Positions 3,281 to 31,094 of a DNA stretch of 34,137 nt are shown here, in pieces; position 1 is the stretch's first letter; each line of letters opens with the position of its first letter. Source of the DNA: Oscillospiraceae bacterium (GTDB lineage Bacteria > Bacillota > Clostridia > Oscillospirales > Oscillospiraceae); the NCBI GenBank assembly GCA_902767915.1, contig CACXJE010000037.1, forward strand, positions 1 through 34,137, given 5' to 3'. The position numbers and the translations under genes were made by a program. The notes below the pieces were generated by a model that ran no database searches, was not told the origin of the DNA, and saw only the letters and a program-made list of their open reading frames with translations.

Positions 3281-4482
3281 TGGCGCGGGTCGGCATTTAC
3301 GGCGGCAGCTATAATCCGCCTCACATCGGCCATTGTCTGGCGGCGGCGGAGATGGTCCGTCATCTGGAGCTGGATCGGCTGATCATCATGCCTGCCGCAA
3401 CACCGCCGCATAAATCCTTGGCTGCAGGATCTCCCACAGCGGAGGAGCGGCTGGAGCTTTGCCGTTTGAGCTTTGCCTCCATACCCCAGGCCCGGGTCAG
3501 TGATCTGGAGCTGCGCAGACAGGGCCCCAGCTACACGGTGGATACGCTGCGGGAGCTCCGGGAACTGTATCCCGAGGATGAGCTGTTTTTGATCATGGGC
3601 ACCGATATGCTGCTGAGCTTTGATCAGTGGCGCTGCCCGGAGGAGATTGCAGCCATGGCGACCCTTGCCGTGATGCACCGGGAGGATGACGAGGCCCTGT
3701 GGGAGCAGGTGCGAGCCAAGGCTGAAGCGCTCAGCAAAGCCATGAAGGCAAAGATCGTCCTGGTGCAAAACCGCTGCGTGGAGATCTCCTCCACAACGGT
3801 GCGCCGCCTGCTGGCCATGGGTGCGCCGGGGTATCTGGAACCCTCTGCGGAGAAGCTGATTCGGTCGAAGGGCTGGTATCTTTCCGGCGCAGATCTGAAA
3901 AACCTGCCGTTCGACGAGTTGAAGGAGCGTTCGCTCTCCCTGCATGATGAAAAGCGCAGGGCTCACGTTGTGGGCTGCAGCGAGACCGCCCAAGCGCTGG
4001 CCGAACATTACGGCGCCGATCCGGACCTGGCAGCCCGTGCGGGAATTCTGCATGATATTACGAAGGCGCTCGGCCCAACGGAACAGTTGCATCTTTGCGA
4101 AAAGTATGGTATAGTGCTGACAGAGCTGCAGCGTGCAAACCCAAAGCTCCTGCACGCGAAGACCGGTGCAGTGATCGCCCGGGAGATCTTCGGGGAATCC
4201 GACGAGGTCTGTGAGGCGATACGCTGGCATACCACAGGCAAGCCGCAAATGACCCTGCTGGAAAAGATCATCTATTTAGCGGACTATATTGAGCCGAACC
4301 GCGACTTCCCCGGTGTGGAAGCTCTCAGACAGGCAGTCTGGGAGGAACTGGACAAGGGCCTTTATCAAGGCCTGGACCTGTCTGTCCGGATTTTGCGGAA
4401 GCAGGGAAGGATCATTGATCCGGATTCTCTGCAGGCTTGGGAATACTATAAAAAATACACTGAGAGGAGCAATCAGCTATGA
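3280..4482 (+). CDS. nadD: Fusion of nicotinate-nucleotide adenylyltransferase (NadD) with YqeK HD-domain hydrolase
   Basis: Residues 1 to about 200 are NadD, which adenylates nicotinate mononucleotide in NAD synthesis: GSYNPPHIGH (9-18) is the nucleotidyltransferase motif and ISSTTVR (169-175) the second ATP motif. Residues about 215-400 are YqeK, an HD-family enzyme reported to cleave diadenosine tetraphosphate symmetrically. Probable metal ligands are H229, H258-D259, H292, H317 and D335. In many Firmicutes the two are adjacent separate genes; here one continuous frame joins them. The start overlaps the yhbY stop (TGATG). The linker around residues 200-220 contains no stop, so the fusion looks genuine. 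Confidence 0.94.
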   Translation: MARVGIYGGSYNPPHIGHCLAAAEMVRHLELDRLIIMPAATPPHKSLAAGSPTAEERLELCRLSFASIPQARVSDLELRRQGPSYTVDTLRELRELYPEDELFLIMGTDMLLSFDQWRCPEEIAAMATLAVMHREDDEALWEQVRAKAEALSKAMKAKIVLVQNRCVEISSTTVRRLLAMGAPGYLEPSAEKLIRSKGWYLSGADLKNLPFDELKERSLSLHDEKRRAHVVGCSETAQALAEHYGADPDLAARAGILHDITKALGPTEQLHLCEKYGIVLTELQRANPKLLHAKTGAVIAREIFGESDEVCEAIRWHTTGKPQMTLLEKIIYLADYIEPNRDFPGVEALRQAVWEELDKGLYQGLDLSVRILRKQGRIIDPDSLQAWEYYKKYTERSNQL

Positions 4483-13589: not shown

Positions 13590-13605
13590 GTGTCAGGTGA
13601 TGAAA

Positions 13606-14502
13606 ATGGAACGAACATTGGAAGGGATTCCGAATCTGTTTCCGGAACCCTTAAGGTCTTCTGTGGCTGCGCGATTGTCAGAGAAAAACGGGGAAATCGA
13701 GGAAATCCGTCTGCGAAACGGTTTTCCGCCAACCTGTCTTTACGGTCAGAGAGAGCTGCCGATTCAACCAGAGCCGCCGGGCTTTTCCGTGGACGGGAAA
13801 TTACTGTCAGAGGTCGTAACGAGAGCCTCTCGTTATTCGGCCTATGCGGTGCAGGATCAGCTGCGGCAGGGCTTTCTGACCATTCCCGGCGGCCACCGCC
13901 TGGGCGTCTGCGGACGGGTGATTTTGCATGAGAACGGGATCCACAGCATTTCAGAGTTCCAGTCTCTGAATCTGCGGATCGCCCATCAGAAGATCGGTGT
14001 GGCTGATCCGGCAACAAATCTGCTCTGGAGTGAACCGGGTTCTGCTCTGATTGTGGGCAGTCCCGGCAGGGGGAAAACAACGGTTTTGCGGGATTTGATC
14101 CGCCAGACTTCTGACCGTTTTTCTCAGCGCGTGGGACTTGTAGACGAAAGGGGAGAGCTGGCTGCCTGCCTGGACGGGATCCCGCAGCTGCGGATCGGCA
14201 GGCATACCGACGTACTGTCCGGCTGTCCGAAAAGCGTCGGCATCGAGCTGCTGGTCCGAACAATGAATCCAAATTGGATCGCGGTGGACGAGATCTCATC
14301 GGAATGGGATGCGGACGTTCTGATTCGGGCCTCCTATACAGGGGTACGCTTTCTTGCGACTGCCCATGTGTGGAAGAAAGCGGACCTGCAATACCGTCCG
14401 GTTTATCGCAGGCTGCTGGAGGCCGAAGTGTTTGCGTACTTGATTGAAATTCTGCCGGATCGAACGCTTTCCTGTGAAAGGATGAAGGATGCTTTCCGTT
14501 AA
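13606..14502 (+). CDS. spoIIIAA: Stage III sporulation protein AA, AAA-type ATPase
   Basis: SpoIIIAA is the only ATPase of the SpoIIIA-SpoIIQ channel (feeding tube), made in the mother cell and needed for late forespore gene expression; it resembles type II/IV secretion ATPases. Seen are the N-terminal IEEIRLRNGFPP block, GHRLGVCGR, the Walker A GSPGRGKTT, VDERGELA and a Walker B-like IAVDEI. The product is about 298 residues, the usual ~300. The ATG at 13606 sits five bases after AGGTGA; starts at 13597 (GTG) or 13600 (ATG) are alternatives. The end overlaps spoIIIAB by 14 bases. Confidence 0.95.
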   Translation: MERTLEGIPNLFPEPLRSSVAARLSEKNGEIEEIRLRNGFPPTCLYGQRELPIQPEPPGFSVDGKLLSEVVTRASRYSAYAVQDQLRQGFLTIPGGHRLGVCGRVILHENGIHSISEFQSLNLRIAHQKIGVADPATNLLWSEPGSALIVGSPGRGKTTVLRDLIRQTSDRFSQRVGLVDERGELAACLDGIPQLRIGRHTDVLSGCPKSVGIELLVRTMNPNWIAVDEISSEWDADVLIRASYTGVRFLATAHVWKKADLQYRPVYRRLLEAEVFAYLIEILPDRTLSCERMKDAFR

Positions 14503-15004
14503 ATTACTCGGCGCGATTCTGATTATCGGCGCCTCAACCTGGGTGGGGCTGCACGCCTCCCGCTCCGTCAAGCGTCTTGACAGACGTCTGCGGGAGCTCT
14601 GCGACAGCCTGGAATTGATGAAAAATGAGCTTTGCTTTACAAATACCAGCTTTGAACCTCTTTGCAGACGTCTGTCAGAGTCTGCGAGGGGAGAGGTCTC
14701 CACGTTTTTCCGGGAGCTGTCACAGCAAGCTGGAACAAAGGATTTCTCTCCGGTCGGCGCAGCAAAACGTGCTTCGGACGCCGCAAAGCTGAACCTCCCG
14801 CCGGCCTCCTTTTTCGCGCTGGAACGACTGATTGACGGCTTCGGACGTTATGATCTGGACGGCCAGCTTCGGCAAATCGAGCTTGCGCAGCAGGAGCTTT
14901 CCGCGCAACTGGCGCGGAATCGGGAAGATATGGACAGCAGATGCAGGACCTATGAGCTGCTCGGGATCTGTACCGGTGCGGCAGTTATCATATTGGTGAT
15001 TTAA
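14489..15004 (+). CDS. spoIIIAB: Stage III sporulation protein AB
   Basis: The 171 residues have an N-terminal hydrophobic span (about 3-20), a long helical cytoplasmic or intermembrane body (RLRELCDSLELMKNEL; LERLIDGFGRYDLDGQ) and a C-terminal span (LGICTGAAVIILVI). This two-end anchored helical layout is that of SpoIIIAB, which resembles GspF-type platform proteins. Its ends overlap spoIIIAA and spoIIIAC, so translation is coupled throughout. Identification rests on family pattern plus its place in a complete AA-AH operon. Confidence 0.93.
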   Translation: MLSVKLLGAILIIGASTWVGLHASRSVKRLDRRLRELCDSLELMKNELCFTNTSFEPLCRRLSESARGEVSTFFRELSQQAGTKDFSPVGAAKRASDAAKLNLPPASFFALERLIDGFGRYDLDGQLRQIELAQQELSAQLARNREDMDSRCRTYELLGICTGAAVIILVI

Positions 15005-15198
15005 TGGACATTGATCTGATCTTTAAGATTGCCGCCGTCGGCATTATCGTTTCGATTTTGAATCAGGTTTTGGTGCGTTCCGGCAGGGAGGAGCAGGCAA
15101 CCATGACGACATTGACAGGTCTTGTGGTTGTTTTGATGATGGTTGTGCAGAAAATCTCCGACCTATTTGACCTGGTAAAGGATCTGTTTCATTTTTGA
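15004..15198 (+). CDS. spoIIIAC: Stage III sporulation protein AC
   Basis: The 64-residue protein has two predicted spans joined by a short polar loop (VRSGREEQATM). This is the standard size and shape for SpoIIIAC, whose conserved IFKIAAVGIIVSILNQVL start is clearly visible. It is a small integral membrane part of the SpoIIIA channel complex. Its ATG shares a base with the spoIIIAB stop. Confidence 0.95.
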   Translation: MDIDLIFKIAAVGIIVSILNQVLVRSGREEQATMTTLTGLVVVLMMVVQKISDLFDLVKDLFHF

Positions 15199-15584
15199 TC
15201 ATCTCCTATTTCAAACTGTTTGTGCTTGCCCTGCTCTCGACGGTGCTCGTTTTAACCGTCAGAAAGCAAACCCCGGAGCTTGGGCTTTTGCTCTCTCTGG
15301 CAGCCTGCCTGCTTGCGGTTTTTCTGCTTTCAACCTGGTTGAAGCCGATTCTGGAGCTGTTTCACCGGCTCCGTGCAAAAACGGGATTGGACGAGTCTCT
15401 GACAGAGCCGCTCCTGAAGGTTCTGGGCATTGGGCTTCTGACGCAGATCACGTCCGCTTTGTGCAGCGACGCGGGACAGTCTGCTATGGCAAAGCTTTTG
15501 GAGCTGGGAGGCGGGCTGCTCTGCCTGTATCTTTCGATTCCTCTGCTGGATGCAGTTTTATCTTTGATTGAGGGCCTGCTATGA
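15195..15584 (+). CDS. spoIIIAD: Stage III sporulation protein AD
   Basis: This 129-residue integral membrane protein has about four spans. It includes LLKVLGIGLLTQITSALCSDAG, a block typical of SpoIIIAD: a polar, Cys- and Asp-containing stretch between hydrophobic segments. It is a membrane component of the mother-cell channel. The start is a TTG overlapping the spoIIIAC stop, with AAAGGAT about 10 bases upstream; no in-frame ATG lies near it. Confidence 0.94.
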   Translation: MIISYFKLFVLALLSTVLVLTVRKQTPELGLLLSLAACLLAVFLLSTWLKPILELFHRLRAKTGLDESLTEPLLKVLGIGLLTQITSALCSDAGQSAMAKLLELGGGLLCLYLSIPLLDAVLSLIEGLL

Positions 15585-16672
15585 AGCTTCTTTCACGAAT
15601 GATTCTGCTTGTGCTGACAATCATCCTTTTGACAGTACCTGTCTTTGCGGAGGATGTATCGGAGAGTCTGATAGAAGAGATCCATCCGGAAGATGGTTTG
15701 GATCCGGAGGTGATTTCCGGGATCGGCAGCTTTCCGACGGACGCGCCCCTCAGATTTGACCGCCGCCTGCTGGAGCTGATCGGCTACTGGCTGAAAAACT
15801 GGGAGCTGTTGGGCCTTGGCGACGGGCTTCGAACCATGGGCGTGATTCTTGCCTCCGGATTGCTTGGGGGGCTGCCGGATCCGGATACGCCCTTCGGCAA
15901 ATATGCCGGCACAGCCGCCTGCCTGGCAATTACAGCCGCAGTTGCCGGTGACCTGCACGCCATGATCGGCCTGGGCACCCAGACCGTGGGAAAGCTCCAC
16001 ACCTATCTGCGCATCCTGCTGCCCGGAATGGTATCCCTGATGGCGGCGTCCGGGGGCTTTACAGGAGCCGGGGCTATTTCCGGCGCAGCGGCCCTGTTCT
16101 TTGACGTGCTGATCGCCTTGATGGAGCGGCTGTTGATACCCTTGGTTTCTGTCTATACCGCCCTGACAGCGGCAGAGGCGATTCTTGCCAACGGCTCTCT
16201 GGAAAAGCTGCGGGATTTTGTAAAATGGATCTGCGTGAAGCTGATAAAATGGACGCTGTGGGGCTTTTCGGTGTTTCTGACGATGACAGGGCTCTTTTCC
16301 GACACCGTGGATTCCCAAAAGCTGAGATCCGTTCGATTTGCCATTTCCGGAATGGTTCCCGTAGTAGGGGGGATGGTTTCAGAAGCCTCCCAGACGGTTC
16401 TGAACGCAGCCGGGATGCTGAAAACCTCTGTGGGCGTATACGGGATGCTGTCGGTGCTCGGAATCTGCTTTGGGCCCTTTCTGCGTCTTTGGCTGCAGTA
16501 CCTCCTGCTGAAGCTTTCCGCGGCTGTCTGCGGTGTGTTCGGGAAAAGCAAGCCGGCGAATCTGACGGAAAAGCTGTCGGAGGCTTTCGGCATTCTTTTG
16601 GGAATTACGGGGGTGTGCTGTATTCTGGCCTTGTTGATTTTGACCTTATGTGTGCGGGCGGTCGCGCCATGA
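15581..16672 (+). CDS. spoIIIAE: Stage III sporulation protein AE
   Basis: SpoIIIAE is the largest membrane subunit of the SpoIIIA complex. The 363-residue product begins with a signal peptide or first span (ILLVLTIILLTVPVFA), then an acidic external segment, then about six to eight hydrophobic spans with small-residue-rich turns such as SLMAASGGFTGAGAISGAA. It overlaps both neighbours by ATGA. The conserved LMAASGGFTGAG and SGMVPVVGGMVSEA motifs fit the family well. Confidence 0.95.
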   Translation: MKLLSRMILLVLTIILLTVPVFAEDVSESLIEEIHPEDGLDPEVISGIGSFPTDAPLRFDRRLLELIGYWLKNWELLGLGDGLRTMGVILASGLLGGLPDPDTPFGKYAGTAACLAITAAVAGDLHAMIGLGTQTVGKLHTYLRILLPGMVSLMAASGGFTGAGAISGAAALFFDVLIALMERLLIPLVSVYTALTAAEAILANGSLEKLRDFVKWICVKLIKWTLWGFSVFLTMTGLFSDTVDSQKLRSVRFAISGMVPVVGGMVSEASQTVLNAAGMLKTSVGVYGMLSVLGICFGPFLRLWLQYLLLKLSAAVCGVFGKSKPANLTEKLSEAFGILLGITGVCCILALLILTLCVRAVAP

Positions 16673-17154
16673 ACAGCCTGCGCACCTATCTGCTGCGGAT
16701 CGTATTTTGTGCATTTTTTGTCAGTCTTGCCGGGGCGATTCCAATGCAGAAGGCTGTAAAGCGTGCTGTGACGCTGTGCGGCGGCTGCATTATGATTCTG
16801 GTTGTGCTTCGGCCCCTGATCGGTGCGGACTTTGCGCTCTTGCCGGATCGCTGGCTCCCCGACGAATGGAGCGCTGCCCAGTCGGAAGCCGATGCGGAAG
16901 AAGCTTATCAGGAAATCATGCAGGAGCTGATCGAGACGCAAACGGTCAATTTGTTGAAAGAACAGGCAGCGGAGCTTGGCGTTTCGGCGGACTTCCGGGT
17001 GGAATTGATCCAAGACGAGGCGTCCGGGCAGTTTGTGCCCTGGGCCGTAGAAACCATCGGCGTGTTCACGGCGGAGCAAAGGCAGGCGCTCAGCGCTTAT
17101 ATGACGGAAGCGCTGAATATACCGGGAGAAAGGCAGAGGTGGAGGATCGCTTGA
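16669..17154 (+). CDS. spoIIIAF: Stage III sporulation protein AF
   Basis: The 161-residue protein starts with two hydrophobic stretches (about 8-24 and 34-50), followed by a mixed domain with FRVELIQD and QRQALSAYMTEAL, as in SpoIIIAF; the C-terminal part has a ring-building-motif-like fold in related proteins. The start is the ATG overlapping the spoIIIAE stop; the reading frame itself is open from 16225, but that upstream part lies within spoIIIAE. Confidence 0.9.
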   Translation: MNSLRTYLLRIVFCAFFVSLAGAIPMQKAVKRAVTLCGGCIMILVVLRPLIGADFALLPDRWLPDEWSAAQSEADAEEAYQEIMQELIETQTVNLLKEQAAELGVSADFRVELIQDEASGQFVPWAVETIGVFTAEQRQALSAYMTEALNIPGERQRWRIA

Positions 17155-17699
17155 AGGTGGATTTGGACTGGGCAAAAAAGCTGCCTGTTTTTTTGAAGCG
17201 ATATCGCTATCCGGCCTTAATTCTGCTGCTGGGGCTCGGACTGATGCTATGGCCTTTCCACAGCAAGGAGAAGGATCAGCCTGTACAGGCCCTTCCCGTT
17301 CAGACAAAGGTATCGGAGGATGAGGAAGCCGGTTATCGAAAACGAATGGAAACAGAACTGGCAAAGATTCTGTCTGAGATCGATGGGGCCGGGCAGGTGC
17401 GGGTGATGTTGACGCTCCGATACTCAAAGACCGCCCAGTATCAGACAAATGAGGAATCTCAAACACAGAATGACGGCTCAAAAATCAATGCTTCCAAGCG
17501 AACGGAAACGGTGATTTTGTCCAGGGGCAGCTCATATAATGAACCAGCCGTGATCAGACAGGTCTATCCGGTCTTTCAAGGCGCGCTGATCGTCAGCCAG
17601 GGGGGAGACAATGCCGCAGTCCGGTATCAAATCGTCAATGCGGTTTCTGCTCTGCTGGGCATCGGAACGGATCAGATCACGGTGGTAAAAATGAAATGA
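17151..17699 (+). CDS. spoIIIAG: Stage III sporulation protein AG
   Basis: SpoIIIAG forms a large ring in the intermembrane space around the forespore, as shown structurally for B. subtilis. The 182 residues have one span (about 20-37), a linker, and the ring-building region with GAGQVRVMLTLRYS and a C-terminal VYPVFQGALIVSQGG segment and VSALLGIG. The TTG start follows GGAGGATCGC and overlaps the spoIIIAF stop; a GTG two codons later is an alternative. The upstream extension of this frame overlaps AE and AF and is not coding. Confidence 0.92.
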   Translation: MKVDLDWAKKLPVFLKRYRYPALILLLGLGLMLWPFHSKEKDQPVQALPVQTKVSEDEEAGYRKRMETELAKILSEIDGAGQVRVMLTLRYSKTAQYQTNEESQTQNDGSKINASKRTETVILSRGSSYNEPAVIRQVYPVFQGALIVSQGGDNAAVRYQIVNAVSALLGIGTDQITVVKMK

Positions 17700-21542: not shown

Positions 21543-21788
21543 ATGCCGAATAATCGTAAATCTAAAAGCTTTGAGGCGGATCTTTCCCGCCTTGAGGAGA
21601 TCGTGAAGCTGCTGGAATCCGGCGAGCTGCCCCTGGAGGAGTCCATGAAGCTCTTTCAGGAGGGCACCGGCCTGGCCGCGTCCTGCGGAAAGCTGCTGGA
21701 CGAAGCCGAGCTGGAGATCGTAAAGCTGACCAAGGGTCCCGACGGGACCATTCAGGAGGTGCCCTTTGCCCATGATGACCTTGCATGA
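21543..21788 (+). CDS. xseB: Exodeoxyribonuclease VII small subunit
   Basis: XseB is the small helical subunit that binds the coiled coil of XseA. The 81 residues carry the classic pattern FEADLSRLEEIVKLLESGEL (19-21 region onward), then PLEESMKLFQEG, as expected. The ATG has AGGAGG eight bases upstream, which fixes the start against a longer reading from 21423. The gene overlaps ispA by 17-23 bases. Confidence 0.96.
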   Translation: MPNNRKSKSFEADLSRLEEIVKLLESGELPLEESMKLFQEGTGLAASCGKLLDEAELEIVKLTKGPDGTIQEVPFAHDDLA

Positions 21789-22644
21789 AACCTGGGCGGC
21801 CTTCAACGCCCGCTTTGGGTCGAAGCTGGAAGCTCTGTATCTGGGCCACGGCCAGCCCCAGGCACGGCTCTTTGAAGCCATGTCCTACAGTCTGAACGCG
21901 GGGGGCAAGCGTCTGCGCCCCTTCCTGGTGCATCTGTTCTGCCAGGCCTGCGGCGGTCGACCGGAGGACGCGTGGAATGCGGCCCTGGCCATTGAGATGA
22001 TCCACACCTACAGCCTGATTCACGACGACCTGCCCGCCATGGATAACGACGACTATCGCCGGGGCAAGCTCACCAACCACAAGGTGTATGGCGAGGGCCT
22101 GGCGATCCTGGCCGGTGACGGACTGCTGACCGACGCCTTCCGCGTGCTCTGCAGCGGAACGCTCTCCCCGGAGCAGACCGTTCGCTGCGTGAGGGTCCTG
22201 TCGGAGAACGCGGGGCCTTTTGGCATGGTTGGCGGACAGGTTTTGGATATTGAGGCCGAAGAACGGGAATGCACAGAACAGGAGGTTCTGGATATTCAGT
22301 CCAGAAAGACCGGCTGCCTGATCCGTGCGGCCTGCCTGATGGGTGTCATCTGCGCCGGCGGAACCGCGGAACAATCCGAAGCCGCCGTCGTCTATGCAGA
22401 CAGGATCGGTCTGGCCTTCCAGATCCGGGACGATATGCTGGACGTCATCGGTGACGCGGCTGCGCTTGGAAAAGCCGTGGGCGTGGATGCGAACAAGAAC
22501 ACCTTTGTGAAGCTCTATGGTCTGGAGGAATGCAGCAGGCTCGTATCTGCGTATACCAAGGAAGCCCTTGACGCCCTGTCAGTATTCTCCGAGCATCAAT
22601 TGCTTTCGGAGCTGGCAGCGTTCCTAACGGAGCGAAATCACTGA
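21772..22644 (+). CDS. ispA: Polyprenyl (farnesyl/geranyl) diphosphate synthase
   Basis: IspA-type enzymes condense isopentenyl diphosphate with DMAPP and GPP to give the C10-C15 precursor of quinones and undecaprenyl phosphate. About 290 residues are present. The first aspartate-rich motif DDLPAMDNDD and the second DDMLD are both seen, along with GGKRLRPFLV and the FQIRDD helix. AGGAGGT in the xseB end lies 6 bases before a TTG at 21766 and 12 before the ATG at 21772, so either may start it. With dxs downstream, the two isoprenoid genes flank the structured RNA. Confidence 0.95.
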   Translation: MMTLHETWAAFNARFGSKLEALYLGHGQPQARLFEAMSYSLNAGGKRLRPFLVHLFCQACGGRPEDAWNAALAIEMIHTYSLIHDDLPAMDNDDYRRGKLTNHKVYGEGLAILAGDGLLTDAFRVLCSGTLSPEQTVRCVRVLSENAGPFGMVGGQVLDIEAEERECTEQEVLDIQSRKTGCLIRAACLMGVICAGGTAEQSEAAVVYADRIGLAFQIRDDMLDVIGDAAALGKAVGVDANKNTFVKLYGLEECSRLVSAYTKEALDALSVFSEHQLLSELAAFLTERNH

Positions 22645-22682: not shown

Positions 22683-22711
22683 TTGTATATTCATCACGAA
22701 TATGTTATAAT
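22683..22711 (+). promoter_or_regulatory. Extended -10 sigma-A promoter for the OLE RNA
   Basis: TTGTAT (22683-22688), exactly 17 bases, then TATAAT (22706-22711) with TG one base upstream. It lies in an AT-rich gap after ispA, and the predicted start (about 22718) coincides with the first base of the terminal pairing segment of the RNA, which strengthens both calls. Confidence 0.9.
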
Positions 22712-22717
22712 GCAATT

Positions 22718-23317
22718 GGTGGTGCTGTATCCTAGTCGGGATCAACGATTACCAGGAAGGGCCTAAAAATCCTTTGAAGGGCATATCGGTGAAGTCCCTG
22801 GTGCTTGCTTGTTTCGCCCAGATTCGGGTGGGTGCTGGGGGTTAAGGTTTCCGGGCGGCCAATAATGGCATATTGGTTACGACCCGGTTACCGTGGAGAC
22901 CTGTTTTCGTGCGGCCGCCGCACGACCCGTGGACAAGGACGGCGTACGGGACAGGAGATGAACCTGCATTGCGGTGCAGATAGTGTGCTGTGTGCAGTGT
23001 AGCCTGCCTTGCGTGGATCCGTGGGGAAAGAGGAGTCATGCGTACTTGCCTGTGGCCACAGGTGAAGACGATATTCTCTGGAAACCGTATCTGCAAAAGA
23101 GGCTAAGAATCGCTGAGACTCGGAGTGGAAATCACCTAGGCAGTCATTTCGGATTAACAGGGGATTACAGTGCGGACTCAGTGGCAATCGGGTACTGTGT
23201 ACAGGCAACGACACAGCGCAGGCATGAAAAGGGAACTGCCTCTCCGGCGACGGGAGGTTGCCTGCGGGGAAAGCCAACCCGACCTAAGCCGCAAGATTTA
23301 CCCTGTTAATTACCACC
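22718..23317 (+). ncRNA. ole: OLE RNA (ornate, large, extremophilic RNA)
   Basis: This ~600-nt region has no believable gene; apparent frames of 60-130 codons in it are poor and interrupted. The termini pair, GGTGGT (22718-22723) with ACCACC (23312-23317), and many internal helices exist: CGTGCGG/CCGCACG (22908-22924), CCTGTGG/CCACAGG (23049-23062), CGCAGGCA/TGCCTGCG (23217-23266). OLE RNA is known as a ~600-nt RNA lying between isoprenoid genes ispA and dxs and adjacent to oapA; all three hold here. It forms a membrane ribonucleoprotein with OapA and, in Halalkalibacterium halodurans, is linked to tolerance of cold, alcohols and magnesium stress. No terminator separates it from oapA, so processing or read-through is likely. 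The boundaries are inferred from promoter and pairing. Confidence 0.92.
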
Positions 23318-23353
23318 ATTCATTTTTAATATTCAGTAAGGCAAGGATTGTAC

Positions 23354-23959
23354 ATGAAAACGGACCCAAGCCCGGTAAAACATAAGAAAACCGCGCACCC
23401 CGTAAAGCCCGGAAACGCACGGGTGAAGTGGCTGATCACGATTTTTGTGATGGCGCTGCTGATCTCCGCCGTTTTTTCATTTTTGTCTCAGGAGCTCCTT
23501 GTGGCGGCTTCTTTGTTCGGGGCATTTATCGTGCTGTTTACGATTATTGTAACCGGCATCCTCTTCGATCTTTTGGGCATAGCGGTCACTGCCGCCGAAG
23601 AAAAGCCCTTTCATTCCATGTCCTCCAGGAAGGTGCGGGGCGCGTCGGAGTCCATCTGGCTGCTTCGCAACGCGGACAAGGTTTCCTCGATCTGCAACGA
23701 CGTGGTGGGAGATATCTGCGGCATTATATCCGGCGCAGCTGCTGCGGCAGTGGCAATGGAGGCCGTTTTCTACTTCCACAGCCTGTCGCTTCGGATCCTG
23801 CAGATTCTTCTTTCCGCATTTGTCGCCGCGCTGACGATTTGCGGCAAAGCCTTCTGTAAGCAGATTGCGCTGCAGAACAGCACGGCCATTGTGCACGGCT
23901 TTGCGAAAATCATTTATCGGTTCAAGCGCATTTTCCACCGAAAGAAAAAAACAAAATAA
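23354..23959 (+). CDS. oapA: OLE-associated membrane protein OapA
   Basis: The 201-residue protein has four likely membrane spans (about 25-45, 50-72, 124-141 and 146-163), a basic N-terminus and a very basic C-terminus (FKRIFHRKKKTK) suited to RNA contact. Two polar blocks are conserved in the OapA family as I recall it: EKPFHSMSSRKVRGA (83-97) and CNDVVGDICGIISG (114-127). OapA binds OLE RNA directly and anchors it at the membrane. The ATG is six bases after AAGGA; a TTG two codons earlier is an alternative. It follows the RNA by 36 bases and precedes dxs by 34. Confidence 0.92.
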   Translation: MKTDPSPVKHKKTAHPVKPGNARVKWLITIFVMALLISAVFSFLSQELLVAASLFGAFIVLFTIIVTGILFDLLGIAVTAAEEKPFHSMSSRKVRGASESIWLLRNADKVSSICNDVVGDICGIISGAAAAAVAMEAVFYFHSLSLRILQILLSAFVAALTICGKAFCKQIALQNSTAIVHGFAKIIYRFKRIFHRKKKTK

Positions 23960-23993: not shown

Positions 23994-25841
23994 ATGAGCT
24001 ATTTACACGATTTGAAATCCCGCGCTGATTTATGTGCGCTGACAGATTCGCAAACAGAGGCGCTGTGCGCGGAAATTCGATCTTTTTTGATTGATAACGT
24101 ATCCCAGACGGGGGGGCATCTTGCCTCCAATTTAGGCGTGGTTGAACTGACTGTTGCAATCCACAGGGTTTTCGACACGTCCAAAGACCGTCTGGTTTTT
24201 GATGTAGGCCACCAGTCCTACGTGCATAAGCTGCTCTCCGACCGGGGAGATTTGTTCCCGACCCTTCGTAAGTTTAACGGCCTTGCCGGCTTCCCCAAGC
24301 CGAACGAGAGCTGCCACGACGCGTTCATTGCCGGCCACGCCTCCAATTCCGTCTCCGTAGCCCTGGGAATGGCCCGCGCCAGATCCCTGCAGAAGGAAAA
24401 CTACAGCGTCCTTGCGTTGATGGGTGACGGCGCTCTGACCGGCGGCCTGGCCTATGAGGGCTTGAATGACGCCGGCGCCAGTCGGGAGCCCTTGATCGTG
24501 ATATTGAATGATAACGGCATGTCCATCACCCCCAACGTAGGCGGCATGGCCAGACATCTGTCCAATATCCGGACCCGGCAAAGCTATTTCCGCATCAAAA
24601 AAACCTGGCGCGGAATGACCCGCGGAACCAGGGTCGGCAGATTTTTCTATCGGAAGGTCCATCGTCTGAAGGAATTTTTGAAGCGCCGTCTGATCGGCTC
24701 CAATATGTTCAACGATATGGGCTTTGAGTATATCGGGCCGGTTGACGGTCACGACGTGAAAAAGCTGACCTATCTGCTGCGGGAAGCCCGGGACATGAAC
24801 GGGCCCGTGATCCTCCATGTGCTGACGAAGAAGGGAAAAGGCTATGAGCCGGCCGAGAAGACGCCGGACCGCTTCCACGGCGTGGGCCCCTTTGATCCGA
24901 AAACCGGCCTGGTTTGCGCTTCCGGGAAGAAGACCTTTTCCGATGCCTTTGGCGACGCTCTCGTGGAGCTGGCCGAATCCGATGAAAGGATTTGCGCCAT
25001 TACCGCCGCCATGCAAAGCGGAACCGGTCTTGACGCCTTTGCCCAACGATTCCCTCGCCGTTTCGGAGACGTGGGTATCGCGGAGGGCCATGCTGTCAGC
25101 ATGGCCGCCGGCCTTGCAAAGCAGGGCATGATCCCGGTGGTAGCCATCTATTCCACCTTCCTGCAGCGGGCCTTTGATATGCTGATTCACGACGTTTCGA
25201 TCCTCGGTCTGCACATAGTTTTCGCGGTGGACCGTGCAGGACTTGTAGGGGCCGACGGAGAAACCCATCACGGAATTTTCGATATTGGGTATCTGCGGCT
25301 GATTCCCGGTATGCAGATCCTTTGTCCCGCCAATGCCGCCGAGTTGAAGGAAATGCTCCGTCAGGCAATCTATGAAACGACGGGCCCTGTGGCGATTCGT
25401 TATCCCCGGGGCGGGGACGGCCGGTGGAAGGAAGTGCCCGCTTCTCCCGTGCTGCGCACCGGAACGGATCTCACGCTCTGCGGTTACGGTACTACAGTGA
25501 ATACGCTGTTGGACGCAGCCGATCTGCTGCAGGAACAGGGGATAAACGCTGAGGTTGTTCAGCTTCGCCGGATCAAGCCTCTGTCGGATGCCTGGAAGGC
25601 CTCTGCACAAAAAACCGGCGCGCTCCTTCTGGTGGAGGAGTGCATGCCCCATTGCGGTGTGTTTGACGAGCTTGCGGCGGATCCTGCGGCTGCTTCCGTC
25701 AAAAAGGCCGGTTTGGATCTCGGCGCCGGCTTCCCCCAGCACGGCTCCAACGGCGAGCTGCTGCACGCTGCCGGCATGGATGCCGCCGGCGTGGCGGAGG
25801 CTGCCCGAAGGATTGTAAAGGAGGGGCGAGATGAAGCATAA
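23994..25841 (+). CDS. dxs: 1-deoxy-D-xylulose-5-phosphate synthase
   Basis: DXS makes DXP from pyruvate and glyceraldehyde 3-phosphate, the first step of the methylerythritol phosphate route to isoprenoids, using thiamine diphosphate. The 615 residues have the family length. Motifs are FDVGHQSYVHK (H73), GDGALTGG (144-151) and NDNGMS (172-177) for cofactor binding, a loop in the middle (about 193-240) with charged residues, and the transketolase C-terminal domain with GADGETHHG and IRYPRG. The start is the ATG after GACAGAT, with a weak ribosome site; the frame is open upstream into oapA but that part is non-homologous. It ends within the tlyA start. Confidence 0.96.
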   Translation: MSYLHDLKSRADLCALTDSQTEALCAEIRSFLIDNVSQTGGHLASNLGVVELTVAIHRVFDTSKDRLVFDVGHQSYVHKLLSDRGDLFPTLRKFNGLAGFPKPNESCHDAFIAGHASNSVSVALGMARARSLQKENYSVLALMGDGALTGGLAYEGLNDAGASREPLIVILNDNGMSITPNVGGMARHLSNIRTRQSYFRIKKTWRGMTRGTRVGRFFYRKVHRLKEFLKRRLIGSNMFNDMGFEYIGPVDGHDVKKLTYLLREARDMNGPVILHVLTKKGKGYEPAEKTPDRFHGVGPFDPKTGLVCASGKKTFSDAFGDALVELAESDERICAITAAMQSGTGLDAFAQRFPRRFGDVGIAEGHAVSMAAGLAKQGMIPVVAIYSTFLQRAFDMLIHDVSILGLHIVFAVDRAGLVGADGETHHGIFDIGYLRLIPGMQILCPANAAELKEMLRQAIYETTGPVAIRYPRGGDGRWKEVPASPVLRTGTDLTLCGYGTTVNTLLDAADLLQEQGINAEVVQLRRIKPLSDAWKASAQKTGALLLVEECMPHCGVFDELAADPAAASVKKAGLDLGAGFPQHGSNGELLHAAGMDAAGVAEAARRIVKEGRDEA

Positions 25842-29790: not shown

Positions 29791-31094
29791 ATGGGAATTT
29801 ATGAAGAACTTGTAGCCCGTGGGCTGATTGCACAGGTAACCAATGAGGAAGAGATCCGGGAGATGATCAACGCCGGAAAAGCGACCTTCTATATTGGCTT
29901 TGACTGCACGGCTGACAGCCTGACCGCAGGACATTTCATGGCCTTGACTCTGATGAAGCGTCTGCAGATGGCAGGGAATAAGCCCATCGCCGTCATCGGC
30001 GGCGGCACCACCATGATCGGCGACCCCTCCGGCCGCACCGATATGCGGAAAATGCTGACCAAGGCGGACATCGACCATAACGCGGCCTGCTTTAAGAAGC
30101 AGATGGAGCGGTTCATTGAATTCGGCGAAGGGAAGGCCCAGATGGTCAATAACGCCGACTGGCTTTTGAACCTGAACTACGTGGAGCTGCTGCGGGACGT
30201 GGGCGCCTGCTTCTCCGTCAACAATATGCTGCGGGCCGAATGCTACAAGCAGCGGATGGAGAAGGGCCTGTCCTTCCTGGAATTCAATTATATGATCATG
30301 CAGTCCTACGACTTCTACTATCTGTTCCAGCACTATGGCTGCAATATGCAGTTCGGCGGTGATGACCAGTGGTCCAACATGCTGGGCGGCACGGAGCTGA
30401 TCCGCCGCAAGCTGGGCAAGGACGCCCATGCCATGACCATCACTCTGCTGACGGATTCCCAGGGCAAAAAGATGGGCAAGACCGCCGGCAACGCTGTCTG
30501 GCTGGATCCCAACAAGACCTCTCCCTTTGCCTTCTATCAGTACTGGCGCAACGTGGGCGACGCGGATGTACTCAAGTGCATCCGGATGCTGACCTTCCTG
30601 CCGCTGGCGCCTTCTATCAGTACTGGCGCAACGTGGGCGACGCGGATGTACTCAAGTGCATCCGGATGCTGACCTTCCTGCCGCTGGCGCAGATCGACGA
30701 GATGGACAAGTGGGAAGGGGAGCAGCTGAACAAGGCCAAAGAGATCCTGGCCTATGAGCTGACCAAGATGGTTCACGGCGAAGAGGAGGCCAAGAAAGCC
30801 CAGACTGCCGCCAAGGCTCTGTTTGCCGGCGGTTCGGATGATTCCAACATGCCCACTACCGAGCTTGACGAGGCGCTGTTTGCCGACGGCACCGTAAAGG
30901 TTTTGGAGCTTCTGACTGCCTGCGGCCTGATTGCCACAAAGTCTGAGGGCAGACGTTTGGTGCAGCAGGGCGGTCTGGTTATCAACGAGCAGAAAATTAC
31001 GGATATTGATGCTGCTTATACTGCGGACGACGCAAAGGCAGGCATCAAGATCCGGAAAGGTAAGAAGGTCTATCATAAAGCAATACTCAGATAA
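29791..31094 (+). pseudogene. tyrS: Tyrosyl-tRNA synthetase, interrupted by an 80-bp tandem duplication
   Basis: TyrRS charges tRNA-Tyr. One frame runs from [13 protein letters not shown] through the class I signature (TAGH, 45-48), [10 protein letters not shown] and [11 protein letters not shown], to the KMSKS-type loop [10 protein letters not shown]. It stops at 30672 after entering the second copy of the duplication out of frame. The other frame continues correctly from copy 2 ([15 protein letters not shown]) to the C-terminal S4 domain ending KAILR. Removing 80 bases gives about 407 residues, the normal size. No T-box precedes it. As written, the product is truncated before the S4 anticodon-binding domain. 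The cause may be a real mutation or an assembly error. Confidence 0.92.
30531..30690 (+). repeat. Perfect 80-bp tandem duplication in tyrS
   Basis: Positions 30531-30610 and 30611-30690 are identical across all 80 bases, beginning CTTCTATCAG and ending CCGCTGGCGC. Both copies follow GC, a two-base match that fits a short-homology junction. Because 80 is not a multiple of three, the frame shifts. Confidence 0.97.

Follow-up and report, generated by a model that had tools for sequence, protein, structure and literature searches.

What does the non-coding stretch between ispA and dxs on contig CACXJE010000037.1 of an Oscillospiraceae bacterium (GCA_902767915.1) encode, and what would its product do in this lineage? 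A preliminary description of the DNA analysed here (positions 1 to 34,137 of the contig, hereafter the window) took the locus for an OLE RNA gene followed by the gene of its partner protein, OapA. The favoured reading, in which we place somewhat better than even confidence, is that the OLE RNA gene in the window is full-length and stands beside oapA, its obligate partner, and that the two form an RNA-controlled, CNNM-like device for divalent-metal (Mg2+/Mn2+) homeostasis.

The window carries a complete OLE RNA gene and oapA

The OLE covariance model (RF01071), whose gathering score is 50 bits, aligned end to end (model positions 1-616) at 22703-23332 on the forward strand, with 452.3 bits (E = 8.2e-130). 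This was the sole Rfam match above threshold in the window, and one OLE only was found in the whole source genome (2.23 Mb in 99 contigs, 78% complete). The oapA gene (23354-23959, forward strand) is separated from the model end by 21 nt and both flanking genes were identified, so the proposed order of OLE RNA and OapA between ispA and dxs was borne out.

When the Rfam structure was laid on the window sequence, 143 of the 154 mapped pairs were canonical. In an alignment of 35 OLE sequences (the window, 29 other loci of the family and 5 named loci), which underlies all counts out of 35 below, 88.9% of cells were paired, as against 39-48% when the partners were slid by 1-3 columns, and two-sided changes occurred in 103/154 pairs. 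Helix 11 (upper P9), a variable region, was paired in just 48.5%. The conservation of structure on which the preliminary description had staked its assignment was thus found. Folded alone, the window RNA showed a modest excess of stability over shuffled sequences (z -2.35, with 1 of 20 shuffles equally stable); its identity rests on the covariance model and on covariation, rather than on folding energy. These results confirmed that the stretch is a complete OLE RNA gene with an adjoining oapA, and a member of a known RNA class.

It is very improbable that this is a decayed or silent copy, as might be suspected from a 78% complete draft assembly with a frameshifting duplication in the nearby tyrS gene. 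The model match is full-length and its pairs are mostly canonical, the oapA frame is open and keeps the residues invariant among its relatives, and the promoter block is conserved in members of the same genus.

The RNA belongs to the full-length type, since P7, P8, P9 and P13 (stem labels inferred from their order) all aligned without large deletion. The window resembles the OLE-OapA loci of Halalkalibacterium halodurans and Clostridium acetobutylicum in this architecture, in the loops of the cryo-electron microscopy (cryo-EM) dimer, in the P13 loop and in an adjacent oapA with a DxxxD motif, followed by dxs. It differs from them by carrying 13 extra bases in the loop of the presumed P7 hairpin (a label likewise taken from stem order) and in its P6 stem, considered below. 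OLE variants 1 (TANB77) and 2 (RF39) come from gut hosts, as does the window, but in these P7-P9 are shortened or missing, or the P13 OapB site is often absent (PMC11332333), whereas the window aligned through all of these elements.

OapA is predicted to share the CNNM membrane fold

OapA (201 amino acids) had been described as a basic protein of four membrane spans with CNDVVGDICGIISG and EKPFHSM blocks. Both blocks are present, the isoelectric point is about 10 (K+R 25, D+E 10) and the hydropathy profile agrees with four spans. The DxxxD motif (D116/D120, 23699-23713) sits in CNDVVGDICGIISG, and both of its Asp residues are invariant in 29/29 OapA proteins from 30 fetched OLE loci. An AlphaFold2 model (mean predicted local distance difference test score 85) has four long helices and in fold comparison was nearest to CNNM/CorC membrane domains.

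The model superposes on the CNNM membrane domains of MpfA, CorB and other CNNM-CBS-CorC Mg2+ exporters. Unlike these, OapA gave no CBS or CorC (PF03471) match in a Pfam scan, and it carries the DxxxD motif, which is reported to be absent from CNNM domains (PMC11332333). When the PDB was searched with OapA by sequence, no CNNM protein came up, only one weak unrelated match with the single protein and three matches above E 0.6 with a profile. Among 150 genomes of the family, OapA was found in 41/41 with OLE and in 0/109 without it, a strict coupling.

OLE and MpfA are anticorrelated in the family

The distribution of OLE was examined in 400 sampled genomes of the family, 125 of which were positive (a few through partial matches at contig ends). 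In PMC11332333, OLE is reported from 2,822 Bacillota genomes, uncultured gut clades included, and MpfA is found to anticorrelate with OLE across Bacillota; the window does not, therefore, widen the known range of the RNA, as had been suggested. PF03471, used alone as a proxy for MpfA and so counting CorC-bearing CNNM proteins only, was present in 30/125 OLE-positive genomes versus 253/275 OLE-negative ones, and two or more copies were found in 1/125 versus 170/275. Among the 245 good assemblies (completeness of 90% or more, contamination of 5% or less), OLE was present in 86, MpfA in 177 and both in 21; at least one was present in 242, and neither in 3.

Such a pattern might also arise if the OLE ribonucleoprotein (RNP) and MpfA were not functional substitutes and marked different lineages or lifestyles, the anticorrelation being a product of shared ancestry. 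On the family tree the OLE-bearing genomes cluster, both devices occur in 30/125 OLE-positive genomes and neither in 22/275 OLE-negative ones, and Fisher's p of 3e-43 overstates the association because the genomes are related. A comparison within 13 genera of mixed state speaks against ancestry as the cause: pooled, MpfA was found in 21/61 OLE-positive and 23/26 OLE-negative members, and its mean was greater in the OLE-negative members in 13/13 genera. This count is biased, since the genus of an OLE-negative genome was mostly known via its MpfA match and 15 double-negative genomes of unlisted genus were left out; in the worst case, with all 15 placed in the 13 genera, the pooled p is 0.04. The rarity of good assemblies lacking both devices, and an apparent loss of OLE nested within the OLE-positive members of the window's own genus (see below), also argue against shared ancestry, which we regard as an unlikely explanation, albeit one that keeps appreciable weight.

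One OLE-positive genome (G032, locus L156), which has the top OLE score of the family sample, is placed in an OLE-negative clade (ultrafast bootstrap, UFBoot, 80). This placement would reflect either horizontal gain or an error in the tree.

Probable loss of ole-oapA with a retained promoter block in the window's genus

Nine members of the window's genus were sampled. Six carry OLE (in G385 the match is partial and lies at a contig end) and all six lack MpfA, while G217, G295 and G328 are OLE-negative. G217, which is 100% complete, encodes a CNNM-CBS-CorC protein beside a related 379-residue protein (32% over 335 residues). The ispA-dxs junction was recovered from two of the three OLE-negative members, G217 and G328. 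In each, a single contig bears both genes, and neither OLE nor oapA was detected between them, OapA having been looked for at these junctions alone, and the G217 spacer holding a run of N. Rfam at a relaxed threshold revealed no OLE remnant in either locus. The ispA-dxs spacer of G328 measures at most about 180 bases, and the corresponding gaps in OLE-less members of other genera (G053, G154, G226) are also short, about 150-200 bases. The spacer of G217 (L248, about 3322-4005) is ~685 bases long and contains a ~40-base tandem repeat and the N run, ahead of the promoter block described next.

Both genomes retain a block resembling the ole promoter, 48 nt at 90% identity to the window in G217 and 43 nt at 84% in G328, in which TTGTAT, a 17-base spacer and TGCTATAAT stand about 45 bases ahead of the dxs start. 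In a tree of Dxs and TlyA the two genomes form one clade within the OLE-positive members, sister to the window genome with G385 and G359 (UFBoot 87; the next nodes outward have 61 and 95). As G217 and G328 nest among OLE-positive relatives, a single loss of ole-oapA in their lineage would be the simplest reading. Neither the family-level OLE/MpfA pattern nor the retained promoter was found in print in the open-licence PMC literature; the apparent loss within a genus with the promoter kept, and the near-complete either-or with MpfA in one family, are the additions to what is known.

In the window the putative ole promoter occupies 22683-22711 on the forward strand and consists of TTGTAT, a 17-nt spacer and TATAAT preceded by TG (an extended -10, TGtTATAAT, at 22703-22711). 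The start of the locus in the preliminary description, 22683, is the first base of the -35-like TTGTAT. The transcript would start near 22718 and end near 23320, in which case the Rfam match would take in ~15 bases of promoter at its 5' end. Because OLE-less members of the genus keep the promoter block before dxs, the arrangement suggests that ole, oapA and dxs form one unit under this promoter; the ole cluster of H. halodurans is polycistronic (PMC12265935).

An element overlapping the -35 hexamer, TTGWATAT (window 22683-22693), was found in 45 of 93 distinct OLE upstream regions and also before dxs in several OLE-less members of the genus. TGWATATW or its reverse complement was present in 52/93, versus a mean of 5.6 (maximum 13) in 100 shuffles, and the element is possibly a regulator site. 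An ArgR operator was considered for the ole promoter and set aside as a lead, the spacing of the TGWATATW element being different from that of the ARG box. ArgR has been linked to OLE (PMC12265935).

Conserved loops and protein-binding sites of the RNA

Sites known from other OLE RNAs are strongly conserved in the alignment (all window coordinates on the forward strand). The A-rich P4 loop CCTAAAAATCC (22762-22772), a dimer contact in cryo-EM structures (PMC12265935), is invariant at 10 of 11 positions and nearly so at the remaining one. The CGCCCAG loop (22815-22821; invariant in 35/35) and the AATGGCAT loop (22864-22871; GGCAT invariant in 35/35) are presumed to form the kissing-loop contact known from the OLE dimer (PMC12265935), the assignment of the two halves being our own. 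The self-complementary P9 loop TGGCCA (23053-23058), also a dimer contact (PMC12265935), keeps GGCC in 34/35.

As for the protein sites, the J4a/5 side of the kink-turn (22790-22794), where OapC binds (PMC9723947, PMC12286853), has GAA at 22791-22793 invariant in 35/35, and J6/7 (GTGGAGACC, 22893-22901), which forms a side of the kink-turn in the cryo-EM model (PMC12286853), has G.GGAG.C invariant in 35/35. The P13 hairpin (approximately 23237-23256) contains GGCGAC at 23246-23251, with GG..AC invariant in 35/35, and corresponds to the OapB binding site (PMC12054373). In J5/6, 18 of the 35 RNAs (17/30 family loci, plus L141) have an extra hairpin-like stretch in place of the UUAAG of the window (22842-22846; columns 143-170 of OLE alignment A3). 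The variability of J5/6 beside the invariant J6/7 favours the cryo-EM kink-turn of J4a/5 and J6/7 over the earlier version with J5/6.

Partner proteins OapC and OapB

A search for partner genes elsewhere in the genome, proposed in the preliminary description, was successful for OapC. The gene of OapC (YbxF) lies at L066:2542-2793 on the reverse strand, directly upstream of S12-like and S7-like open reading frames (ORFs; named by eye), and its product has YbxF (4lck) as top PDB match (E = 2.8e-15). A second L7Ae protein of the source genome follows nusA-like and ylxR-like ORFs (named by eye), as YlxQ likewise follows the nusA and ylxR genes. For OapB, formerly named YbzG (PMC12054373), the search of the source assembly (78% complete) gave no match; this absence means little, because infA is missing there too. 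OapB is present in a member of the same genus (G096), where it matches PDB 7k9b (OLE-associated protein B) with E = 3.6e-7. In OLE-positive genomes OapB adjoins infA in 26/26 cases in which infA was found, the search having covered 31 of the 41 genomes with OLE.

The KOW core residues of OapB are invariant in OLE-positive and OLE-negative genomes alike. Asn at position 74 of the G096 protein, which aligns with an Asn in 7k9b, is invariant in 31/31 OLE-positive genomes, while the 45 OLE-negative ones are split between Asn (20) and Asp (25); these are raw counts that ignore kinship, and four genomes of uncertain OLE state (G016, G059, G085, G142) were left out. A faster evolution of OapB after OLE loss was also considered. 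The OLE-negative to OLE-positive rate ratio was 1.49, versus 0.83-1.27 for seven neighbouring genes, and a tip test gave p 0.07 (31 and 44 tips), with p 0.025 for the control RpsM; we regard this as suggestive and do not claim it. The residue pattern at Asn74 is clearer than the difference in rate.

A proposed function in divalent-metal homeostasis

The OLE complex has reportedly been proposed by Breaker's group to take part in divalent-metal handling. In the mechanism envisaged here, ole, oapA and dxs would be transcribed, probably together, from the promoter at 22683-22711, and the RNA would fold and dimerise and be held at the membrane by OapA. OapA would be the transport part, with a CNNM-like metal-transport domain lacking the CBS/CorC control domains of MpfA, and OLE RNA with OapB and OapC would substitute for those control domains, giving an RNA-controlled divalent-metal (Mg2+/Mn2+) homeostasis device. 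The dimer and the membrane location, published for other species, would apply to this one by extension.

The preliminary description had thought of tolerance of alcohols or membrane stress. That the RNP is mainly an alcohol, cold or membrane stress device, with secondary effects on metals, would accord with the cold- and alcohol-sensitivity of H. halodurans deletions (PMC10898510, PMC12054373). Nothing in this analysis, however, ties the presence of OLE to alcohol, and OapA is predicted to have a metal-transporter fold. Moreover, the CCUCC anti-Shine-Dalgarno mimic (bS21 site), linked to the cold and ethanol responses, is missing in P6 of the window (22881-22892) and in 34/35 aligned RNAs in all, the single exception being from Acetobacterium (L127); the mimic is known from H. 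halodurans, in which some functions do not depend on bS21 (PMC12054373). We consider a primary stress role improbable, and favour the divalent-metal role over alcohol tolerance because of the pattern with MpfA.

In evolutionary terms, we propose with slightly less than even confidence that the ole-oapA cassette was excised between promoter and dxs, that MpfA does the same job in at least one descendant, that the family swaps RNP and transporter for one indispensable function, and that OapB freed from OLE loses its OLE-specific residues.

Several results weigh against the metal-homeostasis reading, besides the genomes noted above that hold both devices or neither. The Pfam CNNM match (PF01595) of the window OapA reaches 20.9 bits, below the cut-off of 28.4. 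G295 and G328, both 89% complete, have neither OLE nor the MpfA marker. OapB, sought in the 150 genomes with a profile built from OLE-positive copies only, is not tied to OLE, being present in 31/41 OLE-positive and 70/109 OLE-negative genomes, and a strict consensus scanner lists no promoter at 22683-22711.

Members of one genus that differ at ole-oapA, one of them with MpfA, constitute natural pairs that share the kind of promoter and the neighbouring genes. With them it becomes possible to test whether MpfA, made of protein alone, stands in for the OLE complex, and they offer a natural test of the role of OLE.

Relatives, flanking genes and other features of the window

The five nearest named OapA relatives (among the best 80 of 577) share 64-68% identity with the window protein and come from metagenome bins of Ruminococcaceae, Oscillospiraceae and Clostridia; the titles of two name cattle duodenum and buffalo rumen, in agreement with the gut Clostridia origin that had been proposed. 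The contigs of three of the five (L070, L072, L074) start inside OLE, at model positions 298-339, as if assemblers broke at the conserved RNA.

Upstream of the locus lies ispA, encoding farnesyl diphosphate synthase (21766-22644, forward strand; NF045485, 323 bits, cut-off 275), and downstream dxs (23994-25841, forward strand; TIGR00204, 662.5 bits, cut-off 466), probably in the same transcription unit as oapA. In the fetched flanks (up to 1.5 kb) of 30 OLE loci, dxs was found in 29/30 and ispA in 13/30.

In tyrS, an 80-base tandem repeat (30530-30690, read by eye) shifts the reading frame and is either an assembly error or real. Homologues of spoIIIAA, AB, AD, AE and AG, all scoring under the NCBIfam equivalog cut-offs, lie in order at 13597-17696 and make the spore-forming host of the preliminary description plausible.
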